A stretch of DNA of 64,000 bases from Archivesica marissinica (taxonomy: Eukaryota; Mollusca; Bivalvia; Venerida; Vesicomyidae), in assembly GCA_014843695.1 (NCBI GenBank), contig CM026391.1:37633515-37697514 (forward strand), given 5' to 3'. This document shows positions 19,251 to 54,088 of this stretch, piece by piece. The notes beneath the pieces were generated by a model. It saw only the letters and a program-made list of their open reading frames with translations, had not been told where the DNA came from and did no database searches. A program made the translations under genes and the position numbers. Within the stretch, counting starts at the first letter, position 1; each line of letters begins with the position of its first letter.

Positions 19251-19548
19251 TATGTACATTATCTGTTACCATACCTTGTGTACAGTATGTGTTACCATAC
19301 CTTGTGTACAGTATGTGTTACCATATCGTGTGTACAGTATGTGTTACCATGCCTTTTGTACAGTATGTGTTACCATACCTTGTGTACAGTATGTGTTACC
19401 ATGCCTTGTGTACAGTATGTGTTGCCATACCTTGTGTACAATATGTGTTACCATGCCTTGTGTACAGTATGTGTTACCATACCTTGTGTACAGTATGTGT
19501 TACCATACCTTGTGTACAGTATGTGTTACCATGCCTTGTGTACAGTAT

Positions 19549-22408: not shown

Positions 22409-23254
22409 GTGTGTCCATGTCGTGTGTACAGTATTTGTTACCATGTCGTGTGTACAGCATCTGTTACCATGCCGTGTGTACAGTATGTGTTACCATGCCG
22501 TGTGTACAGTATGTGTTACCATGCCTTGTGTACAGTATGTGTTACACTGCCGTATATACAGTATGTGTTACCATGCCTTGTGTACAGTATGTGTTACCAT
22601 GCCTTGTGTACAGTATGTGCTACCATGCCATGTTTACAGTATGTGTTACCATGCCGTGTGTACAGTATGTGTTACCATGCCTTGTGTACAGTATGTGATA
22701 CCATGCCATGTTTACAGTATGTGTTATCATGCCGTGTGTACAGTATGTGTTACCATACCCTGTGTACAGTATGTGTTACCGTACCTTGTGCACAGTATGT
22801 GTTACCATGCCTTGTGTACAGTATGTGTTACCATGCCTTGTGTACAGTATGTGTTACCATGCCGTATGTACGGTATCTGTTACCATACCTTGTGTATAGT
22901 ATGTGTTACCATACATTGTGTACAGTATGTGTTACCATACCTTGTGTACAGTATTTGTTAACATACCTTGTGTACAGTATGTGCTACTATGCCTTGTGTT
23001 CAGTATGTGTTACCATGCATTGTGTACAGTATATGTTACCATACCTTGTGTACAGTATGTGTTACCATGCCGTGTGTATAGCATGTGTGACCATGTCGTG
23101 TGTACAGTATTTGTTACCATGTCGTGTGTACAGCATGTGTTACCATGCCGTGTGTACAGTATGTGTTACCGTACCTTGTGCACAGTATGTGTTACCATGC
23201 CTTGTGTACAGTATGTGTTACCATGCCTTGTGTACAGTATGTGTTACCATGCCG
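22409..23254 (+). repeat. higher-order block C, second copy
   Basis: Counterpart of 18405-19250 with a few substitutions, for example CGTGTGTAC here for CCTGTGTAC at about 18417. The same landmark series also occurs twice in the right-hand inverted array, read on the minus strand from about 54865 and about 58114. Confidence 0.75.
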
Positions 23255-25698: not shown

Positions 25699-26069
25699 CA
25701 GAAAGTTGATATGCGGGTCTCAAATTGTGCCTACTTGTATAGTAATAACTAGGATCACCGTCTTGTTAAAATAAATAATGTAAAATGTTCATAAAAAATA
25801 TTAAGAAAAGTACATAATTGAATAATGGTTAAGAATTAAAATACATAATGCTATATACATCGTTAGATTAAACACACCAAACTAAAATGTACTTCCAATA
25901 AGTGTATCACAGAGTGTAGCCGGTCCAGTGATTGGGTCGATCCATACCTACTAGGATCCCGCTACACCTGTGATACTCTCCTCTGAATATACTCCAGTTG
26001 ACAGTTACATCAATACTATTCTCATATGTTCTACAATGTTTCGTGTAATTTACACTCCATAGTATTATT
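25699..26069. other. AT-rich junction between satellite and LINE
   Basis: No coding signal is visible. The 26-bp array stops within a CATGCTGTCAG sequence, and about 200 bp of AT-rich DNA follows (many AATAAATAATG and AAAATATTAAG runs). An imperfect hairpin lies at 25904-25976, and then comes sequence leading into the end of the L2/CR1-like LINE. Its mirror image is 50347-50717. Confidence 0.7.
25904..25976. repeat. imperfect inverted repeat (hairpin) beside the satellite edge
   Basis: Arms GTATCACAGAGTGTAGC and GCTACACCTGTGATAC pair with a one-base bulge across a loop of about 40 bp. It is not followed by a T-run and has no cloverleaf, so it is neither a terminator nor a tRNA. It could be the remnant of a small fold-back element. 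Mirror copy at 50440-50512. Confidence 0.65.
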
Positions 26070-26789
26070 TTAACAAGTGTGTTTTGACTTGGTTTTGAAT
26101 ACTACGACTGTGTCATAGTGTTTTATATTATCAGGGAGTGAATTCCACAATGATGTGGCATGTTGGAAACATCTGCCACCATATCTTACAACACGATTTT
26201 GGCACACGTTTTTTGTGAGTTTTCCGTTCTCTGCTTTCGCGCAGGTCTGTATATTTCAATCATGTATTTGATGTAATTCGGGTCTTGGTCCTGTAGAGCT
26301 TCATAGGTGTGGATGATAATCTTATACTCAACCCAATGAAGTACATGAACCCATTGAAGTTCCTTGAGCACCAGTGTTATGTGCTTGTAACGGCGACGAG
26401 TTTTTGTGATGATTCGTGTTGCATTGTTCTTGATATTTTTTAATTGTGTTTAAACTGTACTTTGGAACACCGTACAGAAGAGCATTATAGAAATCCAAGC
26501 GCGACGTAACTAGGGAGTTAACTAATGTTGTTGTCGCATGGGAAGTGACGTATTCTCTTATGTGTCCTATATGGCGCAACTGTGCATAACTAGATCGACA
26601 ACCAGAACCTATATGTTTGTCCATGTCCATTTTTATATCTAGGAATGCACCGATAATTTCTTTTATTGCATACGTTACTATAAATAGTAACAAATTTAAT
26701 GGTAGAAAAGCAAAATATCTGGTCGACGCGGGCAATATATTTCGATTTTCGGTTCTGCCGGGTCAATATCCGATATTGGCCCTTGGCCC

Positions 26790-26830
26790 GCGCGTGCCGG
26801 ACCAATATTTGATATTGGCCCGGCACGCGC
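26790..26830. repeat. 41-bp hairpin with CCAAT motifs
   Basis: The 19-base arm GCGCGTGCCGGACCAATAT pairs with ATATTGGCCCGGCACGCGC across a TTG loop with a single mismatch. It is immediately preceded by a smaller palindrome (26761-26782) with the same CAATAT/ATATTG core. Mirror copy at 49586-49626. Confidence 0.85.
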
Positions 26831-27012
26831 CTAGAACGAATCGCGAGCACGTGTCACAGGTAGCAACAACATAGTAACTACATTGTGTAAACATGGCCGC
26901 CGAAGCAACACTAAAGTCGTTGTCTGACATATTGTTGTCTCTTGACGGTAAAATGGCTGAGCGAAATAAGCAAATAACAGCAGAAGAAACATACGGCTAT
27001 GTATGCAATAAA

Positions 27013-27144
27013 GAAGTTATTAAACGGCTGCGGTGGGCCATTTGTGTATATTGGCGCACCTATCCGATATTGACCCTCGGGCCAATATCTCCATAGGATG
27101 CGCCAATATCCACAAATGGCCCACCTCCGCGGTTTAATAACCTC
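27013..27144. repeat. 132-bp long hairpin with 46-bp arms
   Basis: Left arm 27013-27058 and right arm 27099-27144 are reverse complements with about six or seven mismatches. The inner part, GGTGGGCCATTTGTG then ATATTGGCGCA, matches at all but one position. The 40-bp centre is itself partly self-complementary (CCTAT..GATATTG against CAATATC..ATAGG). It shares the sequence TATCCGATATTG with the smaller hairpin region at 26761. Mirror copy at 49272-49403. Confidence 0.85.
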
Positions 27145-27711
27145 TAAATACTGGTTGATGGTTTTATTGTGGAACCGCCTACATTCACATGTTTTCAATG
27201 AGACTTTCATTTGGTTTGATTTGAAAAGGATTATTATTCATCCATAATACTATCACAAATAAACATATTTATATTCCTCGTATGGCTGTTGCAGCTCCAG
27301 AACTAGATTATGTTGGACTAAATGATAGATACAAGTTTCCATCGTCACATAAAAATGGTGGTTGAGCCAATACTTCTTGCATATTGCGTCGACAGGCTTA
27401 GATTACATCGTAAAGAACCTATGTCCGAGGACAGATCCTTGTGGCGCACTATATATGTCATCAAGACAGGGTTATTTCAAAATTAATAATAATTTTCTAT
27501 ACCACGGCAATTACCAAACAGCGATCAAAGAATGTATTAATAACATAGCCAATCTTAATAAAAATGTAAACCCAAACACTCTCTGGGAACTAATAAAAGG
27601 GAGCATAAGAACTGTAACTATAAACTATTCTTCATTTAAAACAAAACCAAATGCCCACGCGGAAATAGATCTAATAGTATTTGTTTATTATAGTGTCTAT
27701 TATAGTCTATT

Positions 27712-27941
27712 AAGGGCCAGCCATTTCTGACTTATGAGACACCTCTTTATGAACATGCCTCAGTACTTCCCGAATCATATGTGTGTATGCCAGGCGTCAT
27801 GCTGACAGGCAAGCGGTAACCATTATTTAACTAGATGGCGGTTCACCAACAGGCCATATCAGAATGAACCCCTGACGAGGTTCGAAGCTTCGACCTCCTG
27901 CTCCGTAGGCGGACGTCTTAATCACTAGGCCACTGAGACGG
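27712..27941 (-). mobile_element. tRNA-derived SINE inserted in the L1/Tx1-like LINE
   Basis: On the minus strand it starts CCGTCTCAGTGGCCTAGTGA (box A-like TGGCCTAGTGA) and continues to a box B-like CTTCGAACC about 50 bp later. A non-tRNA body follows, ending in a tail of CTATAATAG-type short repeats. It interrupts the LINE between the EIDLI and KEINTLG coding segments. The tRNA-like head does not fold into a complete tRNA and continues directly into the body, so this is a SINE rather than a tRNA gene. I found no clear target-site duplication. Confidence 0.8.
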
Positions 27942-30054
27942 TATAATAAAAGAAATAAATACGCTTGGAAGTATTGTAATACACTCAGATAGCCAAGACA
28001 ACAGAAGCAAGATAGATTTGGAAACTAAACAGCAAGAGTTAAGTGAAATATATGAAAGACAAATAAATGGTTTAATCTTAAGATAAAAAGCAATACCTCT
28101 TGAAGGTTCTGAAAATAATACAAAATATTTCGCAAATTTAGAACAGCGACATGCCGAAAAAAAGAGGAACATACATTAATCTTAACAAACTGGCTAACTT
28201 TTACACAAAATATAGGCGGTCTGCACTCCACGTATTGATTGTTTTCTCTGTCACATAACTTACATATGAGCAGTGAACACAATGTGATGGTATATTAACC
28301 GAGTACGAGTGCTTGCAATCTCTGTGTGACATGAACAACAATAAAAGCCCAGGGTCGGACGGTCTAACAACTGAGTTCTATATTTTGACAAGATATTAAA
28401 ATTGTTATTTGAAATCAATAAACAGCCCATACACTAAGGGTGAACTAACAGATCTCCAGAAACAAGGCATTATTACTCTATAGCCGAAATCAGGCAAACG
28501 GTTAGATATATATCAAACTGGCGGCCTATAAGTCTACTCAACAGTGTTTATAAAAGTGCAACACAAGCCATTGTAAGCCACATTAAAAACGTATTGCCCC
28601 AAACCATAAGTGCCAATCAAACTGGTTTTATGAAGGGATGCTATATTGGAGAAAATGTTCGATTACTTATTGAGACTATATCAATGAACATGACCTTCCT
28701 GGCCTCATATTCTTTTCATACCATGAATTTAGACTTTGATAGTCTAAATCATAAGTATCTTTACAAATGTCTAAGTCATTTTAATTTTGGAGACCCCTTC
28801 ATCACTTGGATCAAAATGTTTTATAATACTATAAATAGTATCATCATCAACAATGGTTATTTAACAAAAGCGTTACATATACAAAGAGGAGTAAGACAAG
28901 GTTGTCTACTATCATCGTTATCTATTTATTATATGCATGGAACTATTGTCATATAAAATCACTGTTGATAAAGATATAAAAGGGTATCAAAATAAATAAT
29001 AAAGAAATATAGCAAACATTGTTGTCCTACTTATTAAATGGGGAAGCACACCGTTTGAATATTTAATAGAATAAGAGATGTAATTACAGAATTTGGAGCC
29101 ATTAGTAGTCTAAAATTAAATGTATCCAAATCAGTAATATTAAGAATTGGAGCACTGCGACATACAACTACAACCTAGTTCAACCAAAACTACTTCTTAT
29201 GGACATCCAAGCAAACGAAGACTCTTGGATTACATTTTAGCAACGATAACGAACAGACTTTGCATCTAAACCTAGAACCAAAATTGCAAGTATTCCATAA
29301 CTGTCCAAAACAGATAGATGGCAACACCGTAAATTGACACTTCTAGGTAAAATGACAGTAATAAAGACATTTGCGCTTCCAAAATTGGTCTACCTATTTA
29401 CAGTTTTACCTATCCCAACAGAAAAGGTGCTAAAATTTACATCGTATAATATTCAACGCATCTGGGAAGGAAAATCAGACCAAATAAAACGCAATATACT
29501 TTTTCAAATCTATGCAAATGGAGGAATACAATTAAGACATGTTCGCAGTTCTATATTCAATTAAGGTATGCTGGGTAAAACGGATAACAAACAACCGCAC
29601 AGGTTCTTGGACATGTTTTTATGATAAGACTTTGAAGCAAAATTGGTGTAAATTTGTTATTTGATTGTAATCTTTCTTTGAAAGACATAAATAGAATGTG
29701 TCAAGCACAACCAGTTTTGTTTCCTGGTTTAAAATAAAACATATGTATGAACATCAAAATGATAAAGCCAGTAGGCCTATTATTTGGAATAATTCTGACA
29801 TAAAATTACAGGAAAAACTTTTATGATCAAGAATGGTACAATCACGGAACAAAGTATATTGAAAATCTTATGATTGTAGACATAATAATGTTTACACGTT
29901 TGAGAACGTAAAGCAAGTATATAATCTAAACAATAAAGATTTTTTAAAATACAACTATTTGATCAGTAATAGTCCTAAAAAGTACAAAGATAAATTAAAT
30001 CAACACATTGTTACTAGGCTAAGACCGAACAATTTGCTACAAAAATTAAATAAC

Positions 30055-30221
30055 AGATACATTCAAAGAACGTGGAACGTAGAAACTCCGAGCAAAAATG
30101 CTATATCAAACACAGATACATTCAAAGAACGTGGAACGTAGAAACTCCGAGCAAAAATGCTATATCAAACATAGATACATTCAAAGCACGTGGAACTTAG
30201 AAACTCCGAGCAAAAAATGCT
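30055..30221 (+). repeat. 59-bp tandem repeat inside the LINE ORF2 (about 2.8 copies)
   Basis: Units start at 30055, 30114 and 30173 with AGATACATTCAAAG; the last copy is partial and ends near 30221. The unit is LINE coding sequence (RYIQRTWNVETPSK). As 59 is not a multiple of 3, each extra copy shifts the frame. The third copy differs by a few substitutions (CACGTGGAACTTAG). Confidence 0.9.
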
Positions 30222-30333
30222 CAAAGGTGTTTAATGATGACAATCTTAAATGGAAAATACACTACTGCATGGCATATAATGCAACGATTCACACCAAACG
30301 GAGAACCTATCAATATACATATCTAATGAGACT

Positions 30334-30522
30334 ACGGGGAGGGCTGTAAATAATGTTGTTATAACTTGTAGCCCAACCCATTTGCTTTTTTCCCCTTGAC
30401 AAAACAAATGTATCGTATACTGCAATCATATAATTACACATTAATCTCCGATTAGTTCTTAGTATTGTATTTATATATGTAATGTATTGTATGCAAAAAT
30501 GCAATAAAATAGTATTAAATCT
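30334..30522 (+). mobile_element. 189-bp insertion with a 13-bp target-site duplication
   Basis: The direct repeat ATCTAATGAGACT flanks the insert at 30321-30333 and 30523-30535. Removing insert and one repeat rejoins LINE coding sequence in frame (QYTYLMRL then VQTNKYLYMC). The insert begins ACGGGGAGGGCTG and has an AATAAA signal at 30503-30508 near its end. It looks like a 5'-truncated retrotransposed 3' end of a LINE or other polyadenylated RNA. Confidence 0.8.
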
Positions 30523-30578
30523 ATCTAATGAGACTGGTTCAAACAAACAAGTATCTCTATATGTGTAAATTAACCGAC

Positions 30579-30622
30579 GTACGTATATAAGTTTATTTAA
30601 AGTCGCCACCACATGAATGCAT
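30579..30622 (+). mobile_element. 44-bp micro-insertion with an 11-bp target-site duplication
   Basis: The direct repeat AATTAACCGAC lies at 30568-30578 and 30623-30633. Taking out the insert and one repeat restores an open LINE frame running MCKLTD into SYLCDFCSM and the Cys/His motif. The size and duplication suit a very short target-primed or repair-associated insertion. The source is not identified. Confidence 0.75.
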
Positions 30623-30680
30623 AATTAACCGACTCCTACCTATGTGACTTTTGTAGTATGAGCATAGAAAGCATAGAACA

Positions 30681-31076
30681 TCTGTGTTGGGAATGCCCTG
30701 TCGTACAAGACCTATAGACTAACACCTGTGTTGGGAATGCCCTGTCGTACAAGACCTATAGACTAACATATGTGTTGGGAAGGCCCTGTCGTACAAGACC
30801 AATAGACTAACACCTGTGTTGGAAATGCCCTGTCGTACAAGACCTATAGACTAACACCTGTGTTGGGAATGCCCTGTCGTACAAGACCAATAGACTAACA
30901 CCTGTGTTGGGAATGCCCGGTCGTACAAGACCTATAGACTAACACCTGTGTTGGGAATGCCCTGTCGTACAAGACCTATAGACTAACACCTGTGTTGGGA
31001 ATGCCCTGTCGTACAAGACCTATAGACTAACACCTGTGTTGGGAATGCCCGGTTGTACAAGACCTATGGACTAACA
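30681..31076 (+). repeat. 44-bp minisatellite grown from LINE ORF2 C-terminal codons (9 copies)
   Basis: Units start at 30681, 30725, 30769, 30813, 30857, 30901, 30945, 30989 and 31033. The unit CTGTGTTGGGAATGCCCTG... is the LINE coding segment LCWECPVVQDL. In copies 1 to 8 the next codon is TAG; in the last copy (31067-31069) it is TGG (Trp), the expected residue. LINE coding then resumes at 31077 with CTCGAGATTAT. The eight extra copies (352 bp) shift the frame. Confidence 0.9.
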
Positions 31077-31390
31077 CTCGAGATTATCTAGGAACCATTG
31101 GTATTAATATTTCCTTAAACTTTAGATACATTTGATTAGGATACGAACTTAATAACATAGTTAATTTTATGATAATTCTGTGTACATAGTTTATCTCGAG
31201 TACGAAATATAAAAACACGTTGCCGAAATTCGAATCATTTAAATATCTGTTGTACATATCAAATGATCGAAATCGAAAAAGACATTGCGTTAAACTCGGG
31301 TAAAATAGCTAGACACAATTTGAAATGGTCAACATTCGTTCAACAAGGCAATCCCAGTGCATAAATACAAATTATAGTCGTATCAATACA

Positions 31391-31889
31391 GTAACCTCGT
31401 ATCATATAGAATAAAACATAAGCTCGTATCATATAGAATAAAACATAAGCTCGTATGATATAGAATAAAACATAAGCTCGTATCATATAGAATAAAACAT
31501 AAGCTCGTATCATATAGAATGTGTTTTGTAAAACATAACATTGTATCATATAGAATAAAACATAAGCTCGTATCATATAGAATAAAACATAACATTGTAT
31601 CATATAGAATAAAACATAAGCTCGTATCATATAGAATAAAACATAACATTGTGTGATATAGAATAAAACATATGCTCGTATCATTTAGAATAAAACATAA
31701 CATTGTATCATATAGAATAAAACATAAGCTCGTATCATATAGAATAAAACATAACATTGTATCATATAGAATAACACATAACCTCGTATCATATAGAATA
31801 AAACATAACATTGTGTCATATAGAATAAAACATAACATTGTATCATATAGAATAAAACATAACATTGTATCATATAGAATAAAACATAA
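31391..31889. repeat. 27-bp minisatellite (about 18 copies)
   Basis: The unit core is ATCATATAGAATAAAACATA, followed by either AGCTCGT (type A) or ACATTGT (type B). Types alternate A/B over much of the second half, giving a 54-bp dimer pattern. A 9-bp insert, GTGTTTTGT, at 31521-31529 is absent from the mirror array. As 27 is a multiple of 3, a 9-residue periodic frame stays open on the minus strand; this is not a gene. Confidence 0.92.
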
Positions 31890-32032
31890 GATATTAGGTA
31901 GAAGCGATCGACCCCCACCTTTCTCACTTTATAGCCACTTTTAATCATTTTTTTTTTACACATGTTCGTCAAATTAACCGAGGCAATGTTTCTATGCATT
32001 CATCATCAAGAGACACACTAAACATATAGAAA
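31890..32032. other. short spacer with poly-T
   Basis: Unrecognised AT-rich sequence with a T10 run at about 31948-31957. The mirror arm has A11 here (44467-44477), the one-base difference that changes the arm offset from 76425 to 76424. Confidence 0.6.
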
Positions 32033-32283
32033 ATAAAATTAAGCAATGTATGTATGTATATTCCATTAATGTCAAACCCCTTGCGGGAAACTAGCCATGT
32101 ATTCCTGGACAGGCTTAGCCGACCTAAGTGGTTAACCAGTACTAAGCAATGTGTGTGAGGAGCCTTGCTCAATAACACTACATAAGTGGCCTGACCGAGT
32201 ATCAAACCCGGACCGTTCGATTCCAAATCCGACGCTCTACCACTGGACCACGGACGTCACTCTACCACTGGACCACGGACGTC
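32033..32283 (-). mobile_element. tRNA-derived SINE with duplicated box A head
   Basis: On the minus strand the element opens GACGTCCGTGGTCCAGTGGT and this 25-bp head, including box A-like TGGTCCAGTGG, is present twice in tandem. A box B-like GGGTTTGATACTC follows, then a non-tRNA body with TTGAGCAAGGCTCCTC and a TACA-rich tail. The GAGCAAGG stretch recalls SINE bodies known from marine animals, from memory only. An 85-codon open frame across it is incidental. Confidence 0.8.
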
Positions 32284-32407
32284 ACACAAGTAATACTCTT
32301 TTACAATGTTATTTAAAAAAAACTTGGTAAAATATATAAAGAAATGAACGTATATACTTAAATACTTAACAAAAAATCGTTACCCGGATAGGGACATCAA
32401 AATGAAA

Positions 32408-32690
32408 AAATGTTCTAATTAACTTCTTTAAATGTTCTAATATACTTCTTTAAATGTTCTAATATACTTCTTAACATGTTCTAATATACTTCTTTAAATG
32501 TTGTAATATACTTCTTTAAATGTTGTAATATACTTCTTTAAATGTTCTAATATACTTCTTTAAATGTTCTAATATACTTCTTTAAATGTTCTAATATACT
32601 TCTTTAAATGTTCTAATATACTTCTTTAAATGTTGTAATATACTTCTTAAAATGTTGTAATATACTTCTTTAAATGTTGTAATATACTTT
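32408..32690. repeat. 22-bp minisatellite (about 13 copies)
   Basis: The unit core is AAATGTTCTAATATACTTCT with TT following; the main variant is TGTTGTAATA. The right-hand inverted arm begins inside this repeat. Confidence 0.95.
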
Positions 32691-32695
32691 ATATT

Positions 32696-32853
32696 TTGGA
32701 GGATAGTGCATGATACAGATATTCCAGAATCTCCTCTGGTTCTTTTCGTGCACGGTGTAGAGCACCGACACGAGACCTCGGTTTAACGTCCCATCTGAAA
32801 GACTGTTAATTTTATTAGGGTCAGACGGGGGATCGAATCTGCGACCGGTTCTT
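32696..32853 (+). repeat. dispersed repeat, copy 1
   Basis: Starts TTGGAGGATAGTGCA, contains GAATCTCCTCTGGTTCTTTT, GTGCACGGTGTA and ACACGAGACCTCGGTTTAA, and ends near GGATCGAATCTGCGACC. The same ordered blocks occur at 33682-33833. It resembles a SINE- or MITE-like interspersed repeat of marine invertebrates from memory; the class is uncertain. Confidence 0.75.
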
Positions 32854-33298
32854 TATCCTGCTGACAGCATATATATACATACAACGGTGCGTGATAGCTA
32901 AATTAATTATAGCTAACAACCTGAATTGTGTGAAATCTCGCTCATGTAATAATAAGTAATATATGAGTGAAATAGCCGAATGATTGAAATAAGTATAATT
33001 TCCGCAAATATCATCGTGCAGACGACCATTGGGTATACGGAGTGAGGTAGCCTTGCACAAGTCGAGTAATGTGTTACCATGCGAGTTACTCCCCTTATCT
33101 TGATTAGCGCGCATTAACTTATGATCAGGTAGATAGTTATCATCCAGACCCTGATTAATATAAGTTGAAAGAACTTGTTTCGCAATCGAGCTAAAATAAA
33201 TTTGTATAAACTAATTGGGCCGTATTGAGTTTCTGATCATATCAAAGGGTGTCATTTTGCCAGAAGATAAAAAGTGAAAAATCGATAGACTGGAAGCC
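32854..33298. other. unassigned DNA between repeats
   Basis: AT-rich sequence with short open frames (longest about 97 codons on the minus strand, overlapping the dispersed repeat) and no recognisable domain, RNA gene or repeat. Confidence 0.5.
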
Positions 33299-33473
33299 AG
33301 GCTACCGTTCACACTCCGCGCCTCACTAGAACCCAGGCTACCGTTCACACTCCGCGCCTCACTAGAACCCAGGCTACCGTTCACACTCCGCGCCTCACTA
33401 GAACCCAGGCTACCGTTCACACTCCGCGCCTCACTAGAACTCAGGCTACCGTTCACACTCCGAGCCTCACTAA
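33299..33473. repeat. 36-bp minisatellite (about 5 copies)
   Basis: Units start at 33299, 33335, 33371, 33407 and 33443 with AGGCTACCGTTCACACTCCG. The unit is much more GC-rich than its surroundings. A 12-residue periodic open frame (SSEARSVNGSLG) on the minus strand follows from 36 being a multiple of 3. The last unit is partial, with CGAGCC for CGCGCC. Confidence 0.93.
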
Positions 33474-33681
33474 CTGGCCGCGTCTTTCACTGGACGTCCG
33501 TTTACATAGTGTCGCGTAGCTTATCCATGCAATGTTACCATCGTCCTTGGCCATTTTCATTACAAGCTCACGTCCGGTGGGAATTGTTTTGTTTCGTAGA
33601 GTGTGGTTTACGTTTATTTATCGTCGCTACCGGTTGTCCATATGAGCGACGCCTGCTGAAGATATTAGTTATTACAGATTG
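33474..33681. other. unassigned DNA between the 36-bp repeat and dispersed repeat copy 2
   Basis: A 63-codon open frame starts at 33509 (MSRSLSMQCYHRPWPFSLQ...), but it matches nothing I recognise and runs into the dispersed repeat. No other structure is seen. Confidence 0.45.
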
Positions 33682-33833
33682 TTGGAGGATAATGCAATGA
33701 TACAGACAGAAACCCATTCAAGAATCTCCTCTGGTTCTTTTACGTGCACGGTGTACAGCACTGACACGAGACCTCGGTTTAATGTCCCCTCTGAATTTTA
33801 TTACGGTTAGACGGTGGATCGAACCTGTTTCTT
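33682..33833 (+). repeat. dispersed repeat, copy 2
   Basis: Same order of blocks as 32696-32853, in the same direction, with substitutions and small indels. Conserved parts include GAATCTCCTCTGGTTCTTTT and ACACGAGACCTCGGTTTAA. The divergence marks separate insertions or an old duplication. Confidence 0.75.
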
Positions 33834-34771
33834 AGAGATGTGTATCTTTCAATTTGTAGCTCGATTTCCTGACCAGGGCCCGATCCGTGAACATATTTAA
33901 TGTACACACAATACGGTGGTGGTACCTGGCTGTTGTCGGCTGTCCCATTATATAGAAGCGTTCTATTGCCATATTGTCAACACTATCGTGTGCACTATTT
34001 AACATCTCCTTCATAAAATTGCTCACTGTGTATGTAGCTTGTTCCGACTTTTCGTTGGCTAATTAACACACGATACAGAATATAATATTGATCCGCATGG
34101 ACTGTACGTGTAGATACTAGGTCTCGTATATCAGTGTTATACACCGGGCATATCAAAGAACAGGGATGCTTTTGGAATGAATACGAGCGTGTTCTGTATT
34201 GTACACTATCCTCCTAAAATAATATGGGTTTCTGGATGCCTCGCCCCTATTAACAAATGATCGACTATAAATAAGCTTATATCAAAATAAGTTATTGTTA
34301 CATAACCGTGTGTTTATTGTATCTATAAATCTACAGCCACAGCAGACGGTGCTCATCTGTAGACTCAACGGGCTCTAACTCCATAGTCTGACAAGACTGG
34401 CGGATGCCGAAGAGAAATCTATAGACAATGTACGTACGATAATGAGCGATGCAGGTATACTTGAACATGAATACCACCCACACACTCATAGGCAATAAAT
34501 GCCATAGTTATGTTAAACTTTATTAGAAATAGAGTGTATAATTTCCTGTAAAATATGTATTATAATTGAAAGGAACTGTGAAATTTAAGATTTTTACGTA
34601 TGTAAATAACAGTTCGTTTGGTGTGTATGCTGTATGTATAGACATTGCATTTGCAGAAAGTACAATACAACGGATATTTCTCGAGCAATGCCCATTTAAA
34701 ACAAGACAATAATATTAAGCAATACTGGATTATATATGGAAACCTAATATCAACATTTATACAGTCCAAAT
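33834..34771. other. unassigned low-copy DNA before the 31-bp satellite
   Basis: About 940 bp with only short open frames (64 to 87 codons), none with recognisable motifs. No tRNA, hairpin or tandem repeat stands out. It has no mirror copy in the window because the first assembly gap intervenes. Confidence 0.5.
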
Positions 34772-37700
34772 ACATGGCATATACACTAGCATGGTACATA
34801 ATACATGGCATGCACACTAGCATGGTACATAATACATGGCATACCCACTAGCATGATACATAATACATGGTATACCCACTAGCATGGTACATAATACATG
34901 GCATACCCACTAGCATGGTACATAATACATGGCATACCCACTAGCATGGTACATATTACATGGTATATCCACTAGCATGGTACATAATACATGGCATACC
35001 CACTAGCATGGTACATAATACATGGTATATCCACTAGCATGGTACATAATACATAGTCTACACACTAGCATGGTACATAATACATGGTATATCCACTAGC
35101 ATGGTACATAATACATGGTATACCCACTAGCATGGTACATAATACATGGTATACACACTAGCATGGTACATAATACATGGTATATCCACTAGCATGGTAC
35201 ATAATACATGGTATACCCACTAGCATGGTACATAATACATGGCATACCCACTAGCATGGTACATAATACATGGTATATCCACTAGCATGGTACATAATAC
35301 ATGGCATACCCACTAGCATGGTACATAATACATGGCATACCCACTATAATACATGCATACCCACTAGCATGGTACATAATACATGGCATACCCACTAGCA
35401 TGGTACATAATACATGGCATACCCACTAGCATGGTACATAATACATGGCATACCCACTAGCATGGTACATAATACATGGTATACCCACTAGCATGGTACA
35501 TAATACATGGTATATCCACTAGCATGGTACATAATACATGGTATATCCACTAGCATGGTACATAATACATGGCATACCCACTAGCATGGTACATAATACA
35601 TGGCATACCCACTAGCATGGTACATAATACATGGCATACCCACTAGCATGGTACATAATACATGGTATACCCACTAGCATGGTACATAATACATGGTATA
35701 TCCACTAGCATGGTACATAATACATGGCATACCACTAGCATGGTACATAATACATGGTATACCCACTAGCATGGTACATAATACATGGCATACCCACTAG
35801 CATGGTACATAATACATGGCATACCCACTAGCATGGTACATAATACATGGTATATCCACTAGCATGGTACATAATACATGGCATACCCACTAGCATGGTA
35901 CATAATACATGGCATACCCACTAGCATGGTACATAATACATGGCATACCCACTAGCATGGTACATAATACATGGTATATCCACTAGCATGGTACATAATA
36001 CATGGTATACCCACTAGCATGGTACATAATACATGGTATATCCACTAGCATGGTACATAATACATGGCATACCCACTAGCATGGTACATAATACATGGCA
36101 TACCCACTAGCATGGTACATAATACATGGCATACCCACTAGCATGGTACATAATACATGGCATACCCACTAGCATGGTACATAATACATGGTATACCCAC
36201 TAGCATGGTACATAATACATGGTATATCCACTAGCATGGTACATAATACATGGCATACCCACTAGCATGGTACATAATACATGGCATACCCACTAGCATG
36301 GTACATAATACATGGTATATCCACTAGCATGGTACATAATACATGGTATATCCACTAGCATGGTACATAATACATGGTATACCCACTAGCATGGTACATA
36401 ATACATGGTATACCCACTAGCATGGTACATAATACATGGTATATCCACTAGCATGGTACATAATACATGGCATACCCACTAGCATGGTACATAATACATG
36501 GCATACCCACTAGCATGGTACATAATACATGGTATATCCACTAGCATGGTACATAATACATGGTATATCCACTAGCATGGTACATAATACATGGTATACC
36601 CACTAGCATGGTACATAATACATGGCATACCCACTAGCATGGTACATAATACATGGTATATCCACTAGCATGGTACATAATACATGGCATACCCACTAGC
36701 ATGGTACATAATACATGGCATACCCACTAGCATGGTACATAATACATGGTATATCCACTAGCATGGTACATAATACATGGCATACCCACTAGCATGGTAC
36801 ATAATACATGGCATACCCACTAGCATGGTACATAATACATGGTATATCCACTAGCATGGTACATAATACATGGTATACCCACTAGCATGGTACATAATAC
36901 ATGGTATATCCACTAGCATGGTACATAATACATGGCATACCCACTAGCATGGTACATAATACATGGCATACCCACTAGCATGGTACATAATACATGGCAT
37001 ACCCACTAGCATGGTACATAATACATGGCATACCCACTAGCATGGTACATAATACATGGTATACCCACTAGCATGGTACATAATACATGGTATATCCACT
37101 AGCATGGTACATAATACATGGCATACCCACTAGCATGGTACATAATACATGGCATACCCACTAGCATGGTACATAATACATGGCATACCCACTAGCATGG
37201 TACATAATACATGGTATACCCACTAGCATGGTACATAATACATGGTATATCCACTAGCATGGTACATAATACATGGCATACCCACTAGCATGGTACATAA
37301 TACATGGCATACCCACTAGCATGGTACATAATACATGGCATACCCACTAGCATGGTACATAATACATGGCATACCACTAGCATGGTACATAATACATGGT
37401 ATATCCACTAGCATGGTACATAATACATGGTATATCCACTAGCATGGTACATAATACATGGCATACCCACTAGCATGGTACATAATACATGGCATACCCA
37501 CTAGCATGGTACATAATACATGGCATACCCACTAGCATGGTACATAATACATGGCATACCCACTAGCATGGTACATAATACATGGTATATCCACTAGCAT
37601 GGTACATAATACATGGTATACCCACTAGCATGGTACATAATACATGGCATACCCACTAGCATGGTACATAATACATGGTATACCCACTAGCATGGTACAT

Positions 37701-40700: not shown

Positions 40701-42838
40701 ATGGTATACCCACTAGCATGGTACATAATACATGGTATATCCACTAGCATGGTACATAATACATGGTATATCCACTAGCATGGTACATAATACATGGCAT
40801 ACCCACTAGCATGGTACATAATACATGGTATACCCACTAGCATGGTACATAATACATGGCATACCCACTAGCATGGTACATAATACATGGCATACCCACT
40901 AGCATGGTACATAATACATGGTATATCCACTAGCATGGTACATAATACATGGCATACCCACTAGCATGGTACATAATACATGGCATACCCACTAGCATGG
41001 TACATAATACATGGCATACCCACTAGCATGGTACATAATACATGGCATACCCACTAGCATGGTACATAATACATGGTATATCCACTAGCATGGTACATAA
41101 TACATGGTATATCCACTAGCATGGTACATAATACATGGCATACCCACTAGCATGGTACATAATACATGGCATACCCACTAGCATGGTACATAATACATGG
41201 TATATCCACTAGCATGGTACATAATACATGGCATACCCACTAGCATGGTACATAATACATGGTATATCCACTAGCATGGTACATAATACATGGTATATCC
41301 ACTAGCATGGTACATAATACATGGCATACCCACTAGCATGGTACATAATACATGGCATACCCACTAGCATGGTACATAATACATGGTATATCCACTAGCA
41401 TGGTACATAATACATGGCATACCCACTAGCATGGTACATAATACATGGCATACCCACTAGCATGGTACATAATACATGGCATACCCACTAGCATGGTACA
41501 TAATACATGGCATACCCACTAGCATGGTACATAATACATGGTATATCCACTAGCATGGTACATAATACATGGTATATCCACTAGCATGGTACATAATACA
41601 TGGCATACCCACTAGCATGGTACATAATACATGGTATATCCACTAGCATGGTACATAATACATGGTATATCCACTAGCATGGTACATAATACATGGTATA
41701 TCCACTAGCATGGTACATAATACATGGCATACCCACTAGCATGGTACATAATACATGGTATACCCACTAGCATGGTACATAATACATGGTATATCCACTA
41801 GCATGGTACATAATACATGGTATATCCACTAGCATGGTACATAATACATGGCATACCCACTAGCATGGTACATAATACATGGTATATCCACTAGCATGGT
41901 ACATAATACATGGTATATCCACTAGCATGGTACATAATACATGGTATATCCACTAGCATGGTACATAATACATGGCATACCCACTAGCATGGTACATAAT
42001 ACATGGCATACCCACTAGCATGGTACATAATACATGGTATACCCACTAGCATGGTACATAATACATGGTATACCCACTAGCATGGTACATAATACATGGC
42101 ATACCCACTAGCATGGTACATAATACATGGCATACCCACTAGCATGGTACATAATACATGGCATACCCACTAGCATGGTACATAATACATGGTATACCCA
42201 CTAGCATGGTACATAATACATGGTATATCCACTAGCATGGTACATAATACATGGCATACCCACTAGCATGGTACATAATACATGGCATACCCACTAGCAT
42301 GGTACATAATACATGGCATACCCACTAGCATGGTACATAATACATGGCATACCCACTAGCATGGTACATAATACATGGTATACCCACTAGCATGGTACAT
42401 AATACATGGTATATCCACTAGCATGGTACATAATACATGGCATACCCACTAGCATGGTACATAATACATGGCATACCCACTAGCATGGTACATAATACAT
42501 GGTATATCCACTAGCATGGTACATAATACATGGCATACCCACTAGCATGGTACATAATACATGGCATACCCACTAGCATGGTACATAATACATGGTATAT
42601 CCACTAGCATGGTACATAATACATGGCATACCCACTAGCATGGTACATAATACATGGCATACCCACTAGCATGGTACATAATACATGGTATATCCACTAG
42701 CATGGTACATAATACATGGTATATCCACTAGCATGGTACATAATACATGGTATATCCACTAGCATGGTACATAATACATGGCATACCCACTAGCATGGTA
42801 CATAATACATGGCATACCCACTAGCATGGTACATAATA
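34772..42838. repeat. 31-bp satellite array (about 260 units)
   Basis: Tandem 31-bp units built on CCACTAGCATGGTACATAAT followed by ACATGG and a variable GCATAC, GTATAT or GTATAC block. Almost all variation is at two sites (GC/GT and CC/TC). Scattered units are 30 bp or shorter (for example near 35345, 35732, 37373, 38915, 40186). The first units at 34772-34855 are the most diverged (ATACACTAG, ATGCACACTAG, CATGATACAT), as expected at an array edge. TAG within the unit closes most frames. The array ends in assembly gap 1, so its true length is unknown. Confidence 0.97.
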
Positions 42839-43838
42839 NNNNNNNNNNNNNNNNNNNNNNNNNNNNNNNNNNNNNNNNNNNNNNNNNNNNNNNNNNNNNN
42901 NNNNNNNNNNNNNNNNNNNNNNNNNNNNNNNNNNNNNNNNNNNNNNNNNNNNNNNNNNNNNNNNNNNNNNNNNNNNNNNNNNNNNNNNNNNNNNNNNNNN
43001 NNNNNNNNNNNNNNNNNNNNNNNNNNNNNNNNNNNNNNNNNNNNNNNNNNNNNNNNNNNNNNNNNNNNNNNNNNNNNNNNNNNNNNNNNNNNNNNNNNNN
43101 NNNNNNNNNNNNNNNNNNNNNNNNNNNNNNNNNNNNNNNNNNNNNNNNNNNNNNNNNNNNNNNNNNNNNNNNNNNNNNNNNNNNNNNNNNNNNNNNNNNN
43201 NNNNNNNNNNNNNNNNNNNNNNNNNNNNNNNNNNNNNNNNNNNNNNNNNNNNNNNNNNNNNNNNNNNNNNNNNNNNNNNNNNNNNNNNNNNNNNNNNNNN
43301 NNNNNNNNNNNNNNNNNNNNNNNNNNNNNNNNNNNNNNNNNNNNNNNNNNNNNNNNNNNNNNNNNNNNNNNNNNNNNNNNNNNNNNNNNNNNNNNNNNNN
43401 NNNNNNNNNNNNNNNNNNNNNNNNNNNNNNNNNNNNNNNNNNNNNNNNNNNNNNNNNNNNNNNNNNNNNNNNNNNNNNNNNNNNNNNNNNNNNNNNNNNN
43501 NNNNNNNNNNNNNNNNNNNNNNNNNNNNNNNNNNNNNNNNNNNNNNNNNNNNNNNNNNNNNNNNNNNNNNNNNNNNNNNNNNNNNNNNNNNNNNNNNNNN
43601 NNNNNNNNNNNNNNNNNNNNNNNNNNNNNNNNNNNNNNNNNNNNNNNNNNNNNNNNNNNNNNNNNNNNNNNNNNNNNNNNNNNNNNNNNNNNNNNNNNNN
43701 NNNNNNNNNNNNNNNNNNNNNNNNNNNNNNNNNNNNNNNNNNNNNNNNNNNNNNNNNNNNNNNNNNNNNNNNNNNNNNNNNNNNNNNNNNNNNNNNNNNN
43801 NNNNNNNNNNNNNNNNNNNNNNNNNNNNNNNNNNNNNN
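42839..43838. other. assembly gap 1 (exactly 1000 N)
   Basis: A run of exactly 1000 N, a round size suggesting a nominal scaffold gap. It joins a contig ending in the 31-bp satellite to one starting inside the 22-bp minisatellite. Confidence 0.99.
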
Positions 43839-44017
43839 TTAAAGAAGTATATTAGAACATTTAAAGAAGTATATTAGAACATTTAAAGAAGTATATTACA
43901 ACATTTAAAGAAGTATATTACAACATTTAAAGAAGTATATTAGAACATGTTAAGAAGTATATTAGAACATTTAAAGAAGTATATTAGAACATTTAAAGAA
44001 GTTAATTAGAACATTTT
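43839..44017. repeat. 22-bp minisatellite, inverted arm (about 8 copies, truncated by the gap)
   Basis: Reverse complement of the 32408-32585 part of the left minisatellite (offset sum 76424). The first base after the N run is already inside a unit. Confidence 0.95.
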
Positions 44018-44140
44018 TTCATTTTGATGTCCCTATCCGGGTAACGATTTTTTGTTAAGTATTTAAGTATATACGTTCATTTCTTTATATATTTTACCAA
44101 GTTTTTTTTAAATAACATTGTAAAAGAGTATTACTTGTGT

Positions 44141-44391
44141 GACGTCCGTGGTCCAGTGGTAGAGTGACGTCCGTGGTCCAGTGGTAGAGCGTCGGATTTG
44201 GAATCGAACGGTCCGGGTTTGATACTCGGTCAGGCCACTTATGTAGTGTTATTGAGCAAGGCTCCTCACACACATTGCTTAGTACTGGTTAACCACTTAG
44301 GTCGGCTAAGCCTGTCCAGGAATACATGGCTAGTTTCCCGCAAGGGGTTTGACATTAATGGAATATACATACATACATTGCTTAATTTTAT
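44141..44391 (+). mobile_element. tRNA-derived SINE, inverted-arm copy
   Basis: Mirror of 32033-32283, with the same 25-bp head duplication (44141-44165 and from 44166) and the same tail. The 85-codon open frame from 44198 translates identically to its left-arm partner. Confidence 0.8.
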
Positions 44392-44535
44392 TTTCTATAT
44401 GTTTAGTGTGTCTCTTGATGATGAATGCATAGAAACATTGCCTCGGTTAATTTGACGAACATGTGTAAAAAAAAAAATGATTAAAAGTGGCTATAAAGTG
44501 AGAAAGGTGGGGGTCGATCGCTTCTACCTAATATC

Positions 44536-45025
44536 TTATGTTTTATTCTATATGATACAATGTTATGTTTTATTCTATATGATACAATGTTATGTTTTAT
44601 TCTATATGACACAATGTTATGTTTTATTCTATATGATACGAGGTTATGTGTTATTCTATATGATACAATGTTATGTTTTATTCTATATGATACGAGCTTA
44701 TGTTTTATTCTATATGATACAATGTTATGTTTTATTCTAAATGATACGAGCATATGTTTTATTCTATATCACACAATGTTATGTTTTATTCTATATGATA
44801 CGAGCTTATGTTTTATTCTATATGATACAATGTTATGTTTTATTCTATATGATACGAGCTTATGTTTTATTCTATATGATACAATGTTATGTTTTATTCT
44901 ATATGATACGAGCTTATGTTTTATTCTATATGATACGAGCTTATGTTTTATTCTATATCATACGAGCTTATGTTTTATTCTATATGATACGAGCTTATGT
45001 TTTATTCTATATGATACGAGGTTAC
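44536..45025. repeat. 27-bp minisatellite, inverted-arm copy
   Basis: Mirror of 31391-31889 with the same order of type A and B units but without the 9-bp insert seen at 31521-31529. Confidence 0.92.
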
Positions 45026-45337
45026 TGTATTGATACGACTATAATTTGTATTTATGCACTGGGATTGCCTTGTTGAACGAATGTTGACCATTTCAAATTG
45101 TGTCTAGCTATTTTACCCGAGTTTAACGCAATGTCTTTTTCGATTTCGATCATTTGATATGTACAACAGATATTTAAATGATTCGAATTTCGGCAACGTG
45201 TTTTTATATTTCGTACTCGAGATAAACTATGTACACAGAATTATCATAAAATTAACTATGTTATTAAGTTCGTATCCTAATCAAATGTATCTAAAGTTTA
45301 AGGAAATATTAATACCAATGGTTCCTAGATAATCTCG

Positions 45338-45735
45338 AGTGTTAGTCCATAGGTCTTGTACAACCGGGCATTCCCAACACAGGTGTTAGTCTATAGGTCT
45401 TGTACGACAGGGCATTCCCAACACAGGTGTTAGTCTATAGGTCTTGTACGACAGGGCATTCCCAACACAGGTGTTAGTCTATAGGTCTTGTACGACCGGG
45501 CATTCCCAACACAGGTGTTAGTCTATTGGTCTTGTACGACAGGGCATTCCCAACACAGGTGTTAGTCTATAGGTCTTGTACGACAGGGCATTTCCAACAC
45601 AGGTGTTAGTCTATTGGTCTTGTACGACAGGGCCTTCCCAACACATATGTTAGTCTATAGGTCTTGTACGACAGGGCATTCCCAACACAGGTGTTAGTCT
45701 ATAGGTCTTGTACGACAGGGCATTCCCAACACAGA
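45338..45735 (-). repeat. 44-bp minisatellite in the LINE, inverted-arm copy
   Basis: Mirror of 30681-31076 with the same copy number and the same single TGG-bearing terminal unit (CCATAG on the plus strand near 45348). Confidence 0.9.
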
Positions 45736-45793
45736 TGTTCTATGCTTTCTATGCTCATACTACAAAAGTCACATAGGTAGGAGTCGGTTAATT

Positions 45794-45837
45794 ATGCATT
45801 CATGTGGTGGCGACTTTAAATAAACTTATATACGTAC
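45794..45837 (-). mobile_element. 44-bp micro-insertion, inverted-arm copy
   Basis: Mirror of 30579-30622, flanked by GTCGGTTAATT direct repeats on the plus strand. Confidence 0.7.
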
Positions 45838-45893
45838 GTCGGTTAATTTACACATATAGAGATACTTGTTTGTTTGAACCAGTCTCATTAGAT

Positions 45894-46082
45894 AGATTTA
45901 ATACTATTTTATTGCATTTTTGCATACAATACATTACATATATAAATACAATACTAAGAACTAATCGGAGATTAATGTGTAATTATATGATTGCAGTATA
46001 CGATACATTTGTTTTGTCAAGGGGAAAAAAGCAAATGGGTTGGGCTACAAGTTATAACAACATTATTTACAGCCCTCCCCGT
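45894..46082 (-). mobile_element. 189-bp insertion with target-site duplication, inverted-arm copy
   Basis: Mirror of 30334-30522, flanked by AGTCTCATTAGAT on both sides on the plus strand. Confidence 0.75.
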
Positions 46083-46194
46083 AGTCTCATTAGATATGTA
46101 TATTGATAGGTTCTCCGTTTGGTGTGAATCGTTGCATTATATGCCATGCAGTAGTGTATTTTCCATTTAAGATTGTCATCATTAAACACCTTTG

Positions 46195-46361
46195 AGCATT
46201 TTTTGCTCGGAGTTTCTAAGTTCCACGTGCTTTGAATGTATCTATGTTTGATATAGCATTTTTGCTCGGAGTTTCTACGTTCCACGTTCTTTGAATGTAT
46301 CTGTGTTTGATATAGCATTTTTGCTCGGAGTTTCTACGTTCCACGTTCTTTGAATGTATCT
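46195..46361 (-). repeat. 59-bp tandem repeat, inverted-arm copy
   Basis: Mirror of 30055-30221 with the same three units and the same third-copy substitutions. Confidence 0.88.
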
Positions 46362-48474
46362 GTTATTTAATTTTTGTAGCAAATTGTTCGGTCTTAGCCT
46401 AGTAACAATGTGTTGATTTAATTTATCTTTGTACTTTTTAGGACTATTACTGATCAAATAGTTGTATTTTAAAAAATCTTTATTGTTTAGATTATATACT
46501 TGCTTTACGTTCTCAAACGTGTAAACATTATTATGTCTACAATCATAAGATTTTCAATATACTTTGTTCCGTGATTGTACCATTCTTGATCATAAAAGTT
46601 TTTCCTGTAATTTTATGTCAGAATTATTCCAAATAATAGGCCTACTGGCTTTATCATTTTGATGTTCATACATATGTTTTATTTTAAACCAGGAAACAAA
46701 ACTGGTTGTGCTTGACACATTCTATTTATGTCTTTCAAAGAAAGATTACAATCAAATAACAAATTTACACCAATTTTGCTTCAAAGTCTTATCATAAAAA
46801 CATGTCCAAGAACCTGTGCGGTTGTTTGTTATCCGTTTTACCCAGCATACCTTAATTGAATATAGAACTGCGAACATGTCTTAATTGTATTCCTCCATTT
46901 GCATAGATTTGAAAAAGTATATTGCGTTTTATTTGGTCTGATTTTCCTTCCCAGATGCGTTGAATATTATACGATGTAAATTTTAGCACCTTTTCTGTTG
47001 GGATAGGTAAAACTGTAAATAGGTAGACCAATTTTGGAAGCGCAAATGTCTTTATTACTGTCATTTTACCTAGAAGTGTCAATTTACGGTGTTGCCATCT
47101 ATCTGTTTTGGACAGTTATGGAATACTTGCAATTTTGGTTCTAGGTTTAGATGCAAAGTCTGTTCGTTATCGTTGCTAAAATGTAATCTAAGAGTCTTCG
47201 TTTGCTTGGATGTCCATAAGAAGTAGTTTTGGTTGAACTAGGTTGTAGTTGTATGTCGCAGTGCTCCAATTCTTAATATTACTGATTTGGATACATTTAA
47301 TTTTAGACTACTAATGGCTCCAAATTCTGTAATTACATCTCTTATTCTATTAAATATTCAAACGGTGTGCTTCCCCATTTAATAAGTAGGACAACAATGT
47401 TTGCTATATTTCTTTATTATTTATTTTGATACCCTTTTATATCTTTATCAACAGTGATTTTATATGACAATAGTTCCATGCATATAATAAATAGATAACG
47501 ATGATAGTAGACAACCTTGTCTTACTCCTCTTTGTATATGTAACGCTTTTGTTAAATAACCATTGTTGATGATGATACTATTTATAGTATTATAAAACAT
47601 TTTGATCCAAGTGATGAAGGGGTCTCCAAAATTAAAATGACTTAGACATTTGTAAAGATACTTATGATTTAGACTATCAAAGTCTAAATTCATGGTATGA
47701 AAAGAATATGAGGCCAGGAAGGTCATGTTCATTGATATAGTCTCAATAAGTAATCGAACATTTTCTCCAATATAGCATCCCTTCATAAAACCAGTTTGAT
47801 TGGCACTTATGGTTTGGGGCAATACGTTTTTAATGTGGCTTACAATGGCTTGTGTTGCACTTTTATAAACACTGTTGAGTAGACTTATAGGCCGCCAGTT
47901 TGATATATATCTAACCGTTTGCCTGATTTCGGCTATAGAGTAATAATGCCTTGTTTCTGGAGATCTGTTAGTTCACCCTTAGTGTATGGGCTGTTTATTG
48001 ATTTCAAATAACAATTTTAATATCTTGTCAAAATATAGAACTCAGTTGTTAGACCGTCCGACCCTGGGCTTTTATTGTTGTTCATGTCACACAGAGATTG
48101 CAAGCACTCGTACTCGGTTAATATACCATCACATTGTGTTCACTGCTCATATGTAAGTTATGTGACAGAGAAAACAATCAATACGTGGAGTGCAGACCGC
48201 CTATATTTTGTGTAAAAGTTAGCCAGTTTGTTAAGATTAATGTATGTTCCTCTTTTTTTCGGCATGTCGCTGTTCTAAATTTGCGAAATATTTTGTATTA
48301 TTTTCAGAACCTTCAAGAGGTATTGCTTTTTATCTTAAGATTAAACCATTTATTTGTCTTTCATATATTTCACTTAACTCTTGCTGTTTAGTTTCCAAAT
48401 CTATCTTGCTTCTGTTGTCTTGGCTATCTGAGTGTATTACAATACTTCCAAGCGTATTTATTTCTTTTATTATA

Positions 48475-48704
48475 CCGTCTCAGTGGCCTAGTGATTAAGA
48501 CGTCCGCCTACGGAGCAGGAGGTCGAAGCTTCGAACCTCGTCAGGGGTTCATTCTGATATGGCCTGTTGGTGAACCGCCATCTAGTTAAATAATGGTTAC
48601 CGCTTGCCTGTCAGCATGACGCCTGGCATACACACATATGATTCGGGAAGTACTGAGGCATGTTCATAAAGAGGTGTCTCATAAGTCAGAAATGGCTGGC
48701 CCTT
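48475..48704 (+). mobile_element. tRNA-derived SINE in the LINE, inverted-arm copy
   Basis: Mirror of 27712-27941, reading head to tail on the plus strand: CCGTCTCAGTGGCCTAGTGA at 48475, then box B-like CTTCGAACC near 48530. Confidence 0.8.
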
Positions 48705-48970
48705 AATAGACTATAATAGACACTATAATAAACAAATACTATTAGATCTATTTCCGCGTGGGCATTTGGTTTTGTTTTAAATGAAGAATAGTTTATAGTT
48801 ACAGTTCTTATGCTCCCTTTTATTAGTTCCCAGAGAGTGTTTGGGTTTACATTTTTATTAAGATTGGCTATGTTATTAATACATTCTTTGATCGCTGTTT
48901 GGTAATTGCCGTGGTATAGAAAATTATTATTAATTTTGAAATAACCCTGTCTTGATGACATATATAGTGC

Positions 48971-50346
48971 GCCACAAGGATCTGTCCTCGGACATAGGTT
49001 CTTTACGATGTAATCTAAGCCTGTCGACGCAATATGCAAGAAGTATTGGCTCAACCACCATTTTTATGTGACGATGGAAACTTGTATCTATCATTTAGTC
49101 CAACATAATCTAGTTCTGGAGCTGCAACAGCCATACGAGGAATATAAATATGTTTATTTGTGATAGTATTATGGATGAATAATAATCCTTTTCAAATCAA
49201 ACCAAATGAAAGTCTCATTGAAAACATGTGAATGTAGGCGGTTCCACAATAAAACCATCAACCAGTATTTAGAGGTTATTAAACCGCGGAGGTGGGCCAT
49301 TTGTGGATATTGGCGCATCCTATGGAGATATTGGCCCGAGGGTCAATATCGGATAGGTGCGCCAATATACACAAATGGCCCACCGCAGCCGTTTAATAAC
49401 TTCTTTATTGCATACATAGCCGTATGTTTCTTCTGCTGTTATTTGCTTATTTCGCTCAGCCATTTTACCGTCAAGAGACAACAATATGTCAGACAACGAC
49501 TTTAGTGTTGCTTCGGCGGCCATGTTTACACAATGTAGTTACTATGTTGTTGCTACCTGTGACACGTGCTCGCGATTCGTTCTAGGCGCGTGCCGGGCCA
49601 ATATCAAATATTGGTCCGGCACGCGCGGGCCAAGGGCCAATATCGGATATTGACCCGGCAGAACCGAAAATCGAAATATATTGCCCGCGTCGACCAGATA
49701 TTTTGCTTTTCTACCATTAAATTTGTTACTATTTATAGTAACGTATGCAATAAAAGAAATTATCGGTGCATTCCTAGATATAAAAATGGACATGGACAAA
49801 CATATAGGTTCTGGTTGTCGATCTAGTTATGCACAGTTGCGCCATATAGGACACATAAGAGAATACGTCACTTCCCATGCGACAACAACATTAGTTAACT
49901 CCCTAGTTACGTCGCGCTTGGATTTCTATAATGCTCTTCTGTACGGTGTTCCAAAGTACAGTTTAAACACAATTAAAAAATATCAAGAACAATGCAACAC
50001 GAATCATCACAAAAACTCGTCGCCGTTACAAGCACATAACACTGGTGCTCAAGGAACTTCAATGGGTTCATGTACTTCATTGGGTTGAGTATAAGATTAT
50101 CATCCACACCTATGAAGCTCTACAGGACCAAGACCCGAATTACATCAAATACATGATTGAAATATACAGACCTGCGCGAAAGCAGAGAACGGAAAACTCA
50201 CAAAAAACGTGTGCCAAAATCGTGTTGTAAGATATGGTGGCAGATGTTTCCAACATGCCACATCATTGTGGAATTCACTCCCTGATAATATAAAACACTA
50301 TGACACAGTCGTAGTATTCAAAACCAAGTCAAAACACACTTGTTAA
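48971..50346 (+). pseudogene. L2/CR1-like LINE RT relic, inverted-arm copy
   Basis: Mirror of 26070-27445. On the plus strand: PQGSVLG at 48972; LCDDGNLYLSFSPT from about 49064; WMNNN near 49170; insertion at 49266-49726; GAFLDIKMDMDKHI near 49770; VTSRLDFYNALLYGVP near 49910; and the final SLWNSLPDNIKHYDTV piece in a third frame at 50230-50343, with the stop at 50344-50346. Confidence 0.85.
49266..49726. mobile_element. CCAAT-motif hairpin element, inverted-arm copy
   Basis: Mirror of 26690-27150, with hairpins at 49272-49403 and 49586-49626. The 67-codon frame is at 49320-49523 on the minus strand with an identical translation. Confidence 0.5.
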
Positions 50347-50717
50347 AATAATACTATGGAGTGTAAATTACACGAAACATTGTAGAACATATGAGAATAG
50401 TATTGATGTAACTGTCAACTGGAGTATATTCAGAGGAGAGTATCACAGGTGTAGCGGGATCCTAGTAGGTATGGATCGACCCAATCACTGGACCGGCTAC
50501 ACTCTGTGATACACTTATTGGAAGTACATTTTAGTTTGGTGTGTTTAATCTAACGATGTATATAGCATTATGTATTTTAATTCTTAACCATTATTCAATT
50601 ATGTACTTTTCTTAATATTTTTTATGAACATTTTACATTATTTATTTTAACAAGACGGTGATCCTAGTTATTACTATACAAGTAGGCACAATTTGAGACC
50701 CGCATATCAACTTTCTG
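50347..50717. other. AT-rich junction, inverted-arm copy
   Basis: Mirror of 25699-26069, including the hairpin at 50440-50512. No coding signal is visible. Confidence 0.7.
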
Positions 50718-53700: not shown

Positions 53701-54088
53701 GTACACAAGGTATGGCAACACATACTGTACACAAGGCATGGTAACACATACTGTACACAAGGTATGGTAACAAATACTGTACACAAGGCATGGTAACACA
53801 TACTGTACACAAGATATGGTAACACATACTGTACACAAGGTATGGTAACACATACTGTACACAAGGTATGGTAACACATACTGTACACAAGGTATGGTAA
53901 CAGATACTGTACATACCACATGGTAACACATACTGTACACAAGGCATGGTAACACATACTGTACACAATGCATGGTAACACATACTGCGCACAAGGTACG
54001 GTAACACATACTGTACACACGGCATGGTAACACATGCTGTACACACGACATGGTAACAAATGCTGTACACACGACATGGTCACACATG

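Follow-up and report, generated by a model that had tools for sequence, protein, structure and literature searches.

A near-identical inverted repeat in the Archivesica marissinica assembly is probably an unpurged second haplotype placed in reverse

We analyzed a window of 64,000 bp from Archivesica marissinica (assembly GCA_014843695.1, CM026391.1, positions 37,633,515 to 37,697,514 of the forward strand), in which two stretches of ∼7.1 kb stand as reverse complements on either side of a gap. We propose that the 17-kb contig carrying the second copy is probably the second haplotype (allele) of the locus found at ∼17 to 32.6 kb of the preceding contig, misplaced and reversed, and that the window would then hold no real palindrome. 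The evidence comes from the near identity of the two arms, from the collinearity of the satellite DNA outside them, and from the position of the contig ends.

The window comprises three contigs separated by two gaps of exactly 1000 N each: contig A (1 to 42838), contig B (43839 to 60947; 17,109 bp, minus strand), which lies in reverse and seems to be redundant with contig A, and contig C (from 61948), with a 30-bp satellite. Gap 1 (42839 to 43838), a placeholder, lies between the two copies, and gap 2 (60948 to 61947) adjoins the other end of contig B. Contig A begins with a 26-bp satellite array (1 to 25695, plus strand, ∼989 units, 89% matches) to the left of the left arm and continues with the 6.9-kb arm, a 22-bp minisatellite (32408 to 32689, plus strand, 282 bp), and a remainder (32690 to 42838, plus strand) in which ∼2.1 kb of different sequence precedes a 31-bp satellite (34769 to 42838) that runs up to the gap. 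Contig B contains, in reverse, the 22-bp minisatellite, which is cut, the same 6.9-kb arm, and the 26-bp satellite (50721 to 60947, minus strand, ∼394 units). At word sizes of 28 and 11 bases, contig C showed no match to contig A or contig B, and the 10 kb at 32690 to 42838 of contig A had no match on contig B. Tandem Repeats Finder, run on the whole window, reported eleven periods (22, 25, 26, 27, 30, 31, 33, 36, 44, 54, and 59 bp); tandem arrays make up 48,917 of the 64,000 bp.

The near-identical stretches cover 25411 to 32585 (plus strand), consisting of 285 bp of satellite and a 6.89-kb arm of decayed retrotransposon and minisatellite sequence, and 43839 to 51005 (minus strand). As placed, they are reverse complements, and a first-pass annotation was right to describe a near-identical inverted repeat here. 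A global alignment of 25481 to 32585 with the reverse complement of 43839 to 50935 yielded exactly three differences in ∼7.1 kb, all of them already listed in that annotation, and no others: a single substitution (G at 29227 versus T at 47189, or G/A once contig B is turned round), 9 bp present in the left copy and missing from the right one (31520 to 31528, plus strand, inside a 27/54-bp minisatellite), and a homopolymer run (T10 at 31948 to 31957 versus A11 at 44467 to 44477). The 9-bp insertion forms a TGTTTT-GT-AAAACA quasi-palindrome, a hairpin as read from the sequence, which suggests a templated insertion. The coordinate sum of 76416 reported for the repeat holds up to 31519 and is replaced further inward by 76425 (31529 to 31947) and then 76424 (31948 to 32585). 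Identity between the arms exceeds 99.9%, and over 7 kb such a level excludes chance. The outer limits first given to the arms (25699/50717) were too narrow, as homology runs on into the 26-bp satellite: ungapped identity reaches 25411/51005, which is 285 bp into the satellite, a register shift of 182 bp (7 units) brings two more 130-bp windows (25025 to 25284) to 100% identity, and longer collinear blocks carry the homology outward to ∼17159/59460. Nor do we see a simple pair of arms around one gap, the right arm belonging to a 17-kb contig that lies between two equal 1000-N gaps.

The part of the contig A array that is collinear with 50721 to 59460 (reverse complement) spans 17159 to 25695 (plus strand), outside the arm as first delimited. 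Positions on contig B are counted below along its reverse complement (B_rc; window position = 60948 minus B_rc), and the satellites were aligned with a tolerance for large gaps, so that some mismatches may be unit-to-unit misalignments. Ten collinear blocks (A 17159 to 24000, B_rc 1488 to 7751) contained 57 mismatches over 5,982 aligned bp (99.05% identity). They are parted by nine gaps, six of them exact multiples of the 26-bp unit (four of 26 bp, one of 104 bp, and one of 780 bp) and three of other sizes (126, 27, and 1 bp). The final 1,016 bp of the satellite alignment, part of which involves the 182-bp shift, were poorer, at 95.0% in one register. Also poorer were A 24001 to 24752 (93.9% with contig B), B_rc ∼7.7 to 9.4 kb (best matches in contig A of just 91 to 97%), and the outermost 1,487 bp of the contig B satellite (59461 to 60947), matched by scattered pieces of 90 to 100% identity over A 12235 to 17157; these three stretches are evidence against reading the copies as alleles. 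For each 260-bp window of contig B examined, contig A contained a sequence with an identity of 90% or more. Contig B was found contained within the homology of its partner, as a haplotig should be, with B_rc 1488 to 17109 collinear, more poorly so at ∼7.8 to 9.4 kb, and the outer 1487 bp made of the same satellite but not collinear.

The same alignment was applied to four control pairings (the distal 15.5 kb of contig A versus contig B, distal versus proximal contig A, and two 10.2-kb parts of contig A versus its proximal 10.2 kb). Counting blocks no shorter than 300 bp and no less than 98% identical, we obtained 5,317 bp for contig A versus contig B and 0 bp in all four controls, with overall identities of 97.0 to 97.6% and 90.8 to 93.1%, respectively. 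Since the controls contained no such blocks, contig B is collinear with this part of contig A, beyond the mere sharing of a satellite. Neighboring 26-bp units in the contig A array have a mean identity of ∼89%, and within 1 to 25695, 520-bp windows compared at lags of 31 units (806 bp), 154 units (4004 bp), and 148 units (3848 bp) were at best 100%, 99.6%, and 98.7% identical, respectively. Because of these long internal copies, the pairing of single blocks is not unique. A stop-free frame of 638 codons also runs through the satellite at 23793 to 25709; it probably just reflects a repeat unit poor in stop codons that is read in three frames by rotation, and it is not evidence of a gene.

At the inner side, the limit of the right copy (43839) is the edge of the contig and not the edge of the homology. 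Contig B stops inside the 22-bp array, and its last 180 bp within this array are exactly equal to contig A, where the array runs 60 to 104 bp further, to 32689 (a range is given because the last 60 bp of contig B fit three 22-bp registers). At its outer side, contig B ends within the same 26-bp satellite. No base in the window crosses from one arm to the other: the continuous spacer of a palindrome was not found between the arms, which are separated by a gap, and on its inner side the right arm stops where contig B does. The inversion itself is without sequence support, and the inverted-repeat character of the locus depends wholly on the orientation assigned to contig B.

Of eight translated pieces searched against Pfam, seven in the arm and an eighth (32821 to 33210) beyond it, one scored above the cut-off, a remnant reverse transcriptase in the left arm (28444 to 28953, plus strand; PF00078, E = 1e-14), which we take from its wording to belong to a non-LTR element. 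A protein search with this remnant matched 9 of 30 candidates, all of them unnamed, with identities of up to 54%, and no viral contig contained an exact match to a 23-base piece of the satellite; the species cannot be told from either result. The minus-strand translations of 26186 to 26762, judged by eye, presumably contain motifs of another non-LTR reverse transcriptase in the opposite orientation; no Pfam match above the cut-off was found for this candidate. Words resembling tRNA box A and box B, also picked out by eye on the minus strand at 27800 to 27945 and 32170 to 32290, are presumed to mark what are perhaps tRNA-derived SINEs. In the window, ARAGORN found no tRNA and Rfam gave no match at gathering scores, and no intact gene was seen in the arm. 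Beyond the arm, a dispersed repeat occurs twice in direct orientation (32696 to 32841 and 33682 to 33827), its two copies sharing 80% identity in an alignment of 156 columns.

We asked how alike two alleles can be. For a diverse outbred species, a single substitution in 6.9 kb is a low number, and this SNP count, while compatible with alleles, is the main point against them. With a model of one non-recombining genealogy over 6,889 bp, the chance of at most one SNP is 2.8% at a theta of 0.01, 9.0% at 0.003, and 23.7% at 0.001, and about 1.4% of genealogies give this result at a theta of 2%. A fixed divergence used instead of the genealogy makes at most one SNP far less likely, but divergence varies from one allele pair to another. 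The earlier appeal to a usually greater difference between outbred alleles is a weak one, coalescent variance alone leading to at most one SNP in ∼1.4 to 9% of genealogies (theta of 2 to 0.3%). The 26-bp arrays adjoining the arm differ by many indels, mostly of whole units, as the alleles of a tandem array can differ. Together, the three arm differences and the array indels form an allele-like set, of a kind not specific to alleles.

We propose that the 26-bp satellite, which differs in unit number and arrangement, would have led the assembler to retain contig B as a separate 17-kb contig, that duplicate purging, if done, would have overlooked it, and that the scaffolder would have set it beside contig A, in reverse, between 1000-N placeholder gaps. 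We infer that both copies are alleles of one individual and, assuming Hi-C scaffolding, that the orientation was set by long-range contacts too coarse for so short a contig. Inversions of short input contigs are described as common in Hi-C scaffolding, because contacts extend over the whole contig, in PMC6719893. Gaps between duplicated pairs on one scaffold, which we find here at 42839 to 43838 and 60948 to 61947, are given as a primary mark of false duplications in PMC9516828, where false duplication in three VGP assemblies totals 24.1, 5.8, and 5.6 Mb, of which 22.2, 4.8, and 3.4 Mb, respectively, lie on the same scaffold, as against just 7 to 24% in three older assemblies. A literature search for a phrase on the 1000-N gap convention found none among the matches listed.

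Among the three options raised by the first-pass annotation, the head-to-head scaffolding error fits best, and a real inverted duplication or a gene-converted palindrome is less favored. For the locus to be a real young inverted duplication, its arms would be near identical through recent origin or gene conversion and the gap would hide the rest of the spacer, which we consider unlikely. Contigs commonly break close to where near-identical repeats end, a recent duplication would likewise leave satellite flanks that are collinear but differ by unit indels, and an arm identity above 99.9% is within the range of known gene-converting palindromes, as reported in PMC3723533. However, no sequenced base links the arms, gaps lie at both ends of the right copy's contig, and this contig stops in a 282-bp minisatellite that contig A crosses unbroken, which is not a natural place for an arm to end on its inner side; moreover, short contigs are commonly inverted in Hi-C scaffolding, as stated in PMC6719893. 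Similarly improbable is a young real palindrome with the 26-bp satellite on both outer sides, in which the arms would be homogenized and the flanks would turn over by unequal exchange, placing the boundary between converted and unconverted sequence at ∼25411/51005. We also give a low probability to a real second copy residing elsewhere in the genome, i.e., a recent segmental duplication wrongly placed here: the region is satellite rich and duplication prone, with segmental copies in the array at lags of 806, 3848, and 4004 bp, but the locus would have to have been duplicated recently and its copy misplaced directly next to it, both unusual events, and the homology is in order across the arm and ∼8.5 kb of satellite flank.

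The remaining explanations invoke the reads themselves. Contig B might be a leftover contig of the same haplotype, split off by read or consensus errors (a homotype false duplication), as could be argued from the very low divergence, from the homopolymer length that accounts for one of the three arm differences, and from the size of contig B, which is about that of one long read. Yet the hairpin-like 9-bp insertion and the whole-unit array indels are atypical of read errors, and with few 1-bp gaps in the aligned satellite, contig B looks like a good consensus. As both kinds of indel, the 9-bp one and those of whole units, seem to reflect true differences between molecules, we prefer a second haplotype over a duplicated read contig, which we regard as very unlikely. 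A fold-back sequencing artifact, in which a missed hairpin adapter or a template switch lets a mirrored read enter the assembly, does produce long inverted repeats, but its mirror copy should abut the original and have an equal number of units. Instead, 10 kb of contig A without a match on contig B, plus the gap, separate the arms, and the arrays differ in unit number by many indels; on these two grounds we rejected this extremely improbable explanation.

If the repeat were a palindrome, it would suggest satellite-rich DNA maintained by conversion. Read as the second haplotype, it is an assembly warning, as a whole contig is likely redundant, and any copy number, satellite length, or structural variant called near 26 to 61 kb would then be incorrect. 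As alleles, the two copies would offer a small natural comparison between a flank nearly free of substitutions and a satellite whose unit number has changed extensively.

Among known systems, gene-converting sex-chromosome palindromes such as P6 of the human Y chromosome resemble this locus in their large inverted copies, with arm identities above 99.9% for human Y palindromes according to PMC3723533. The identity above 99% expected of such a palindrome was found here, with three differences in ∼7.1 kb; unlike P6-type palindromes, the locus is without a sequenced spacer or junction, has array indels in its flanks, and showed no intact gene. The Hi-C orientation errors of short contigs, as treated in PMC6719893, are matched by a 17-kb contig that lies between fixed-size gaps in the reverse of its homologue, Hi-C being assumed here. 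With respect to the heterotype false duplications, or unpurged haplotigs, of PMC9516828, our case differs in that the copy is reversed, is more than half satellite, and has a very low arm divergence, and it resembles them in having near-identical copies on one scaffold, a gap between them, and small allele-like differences.
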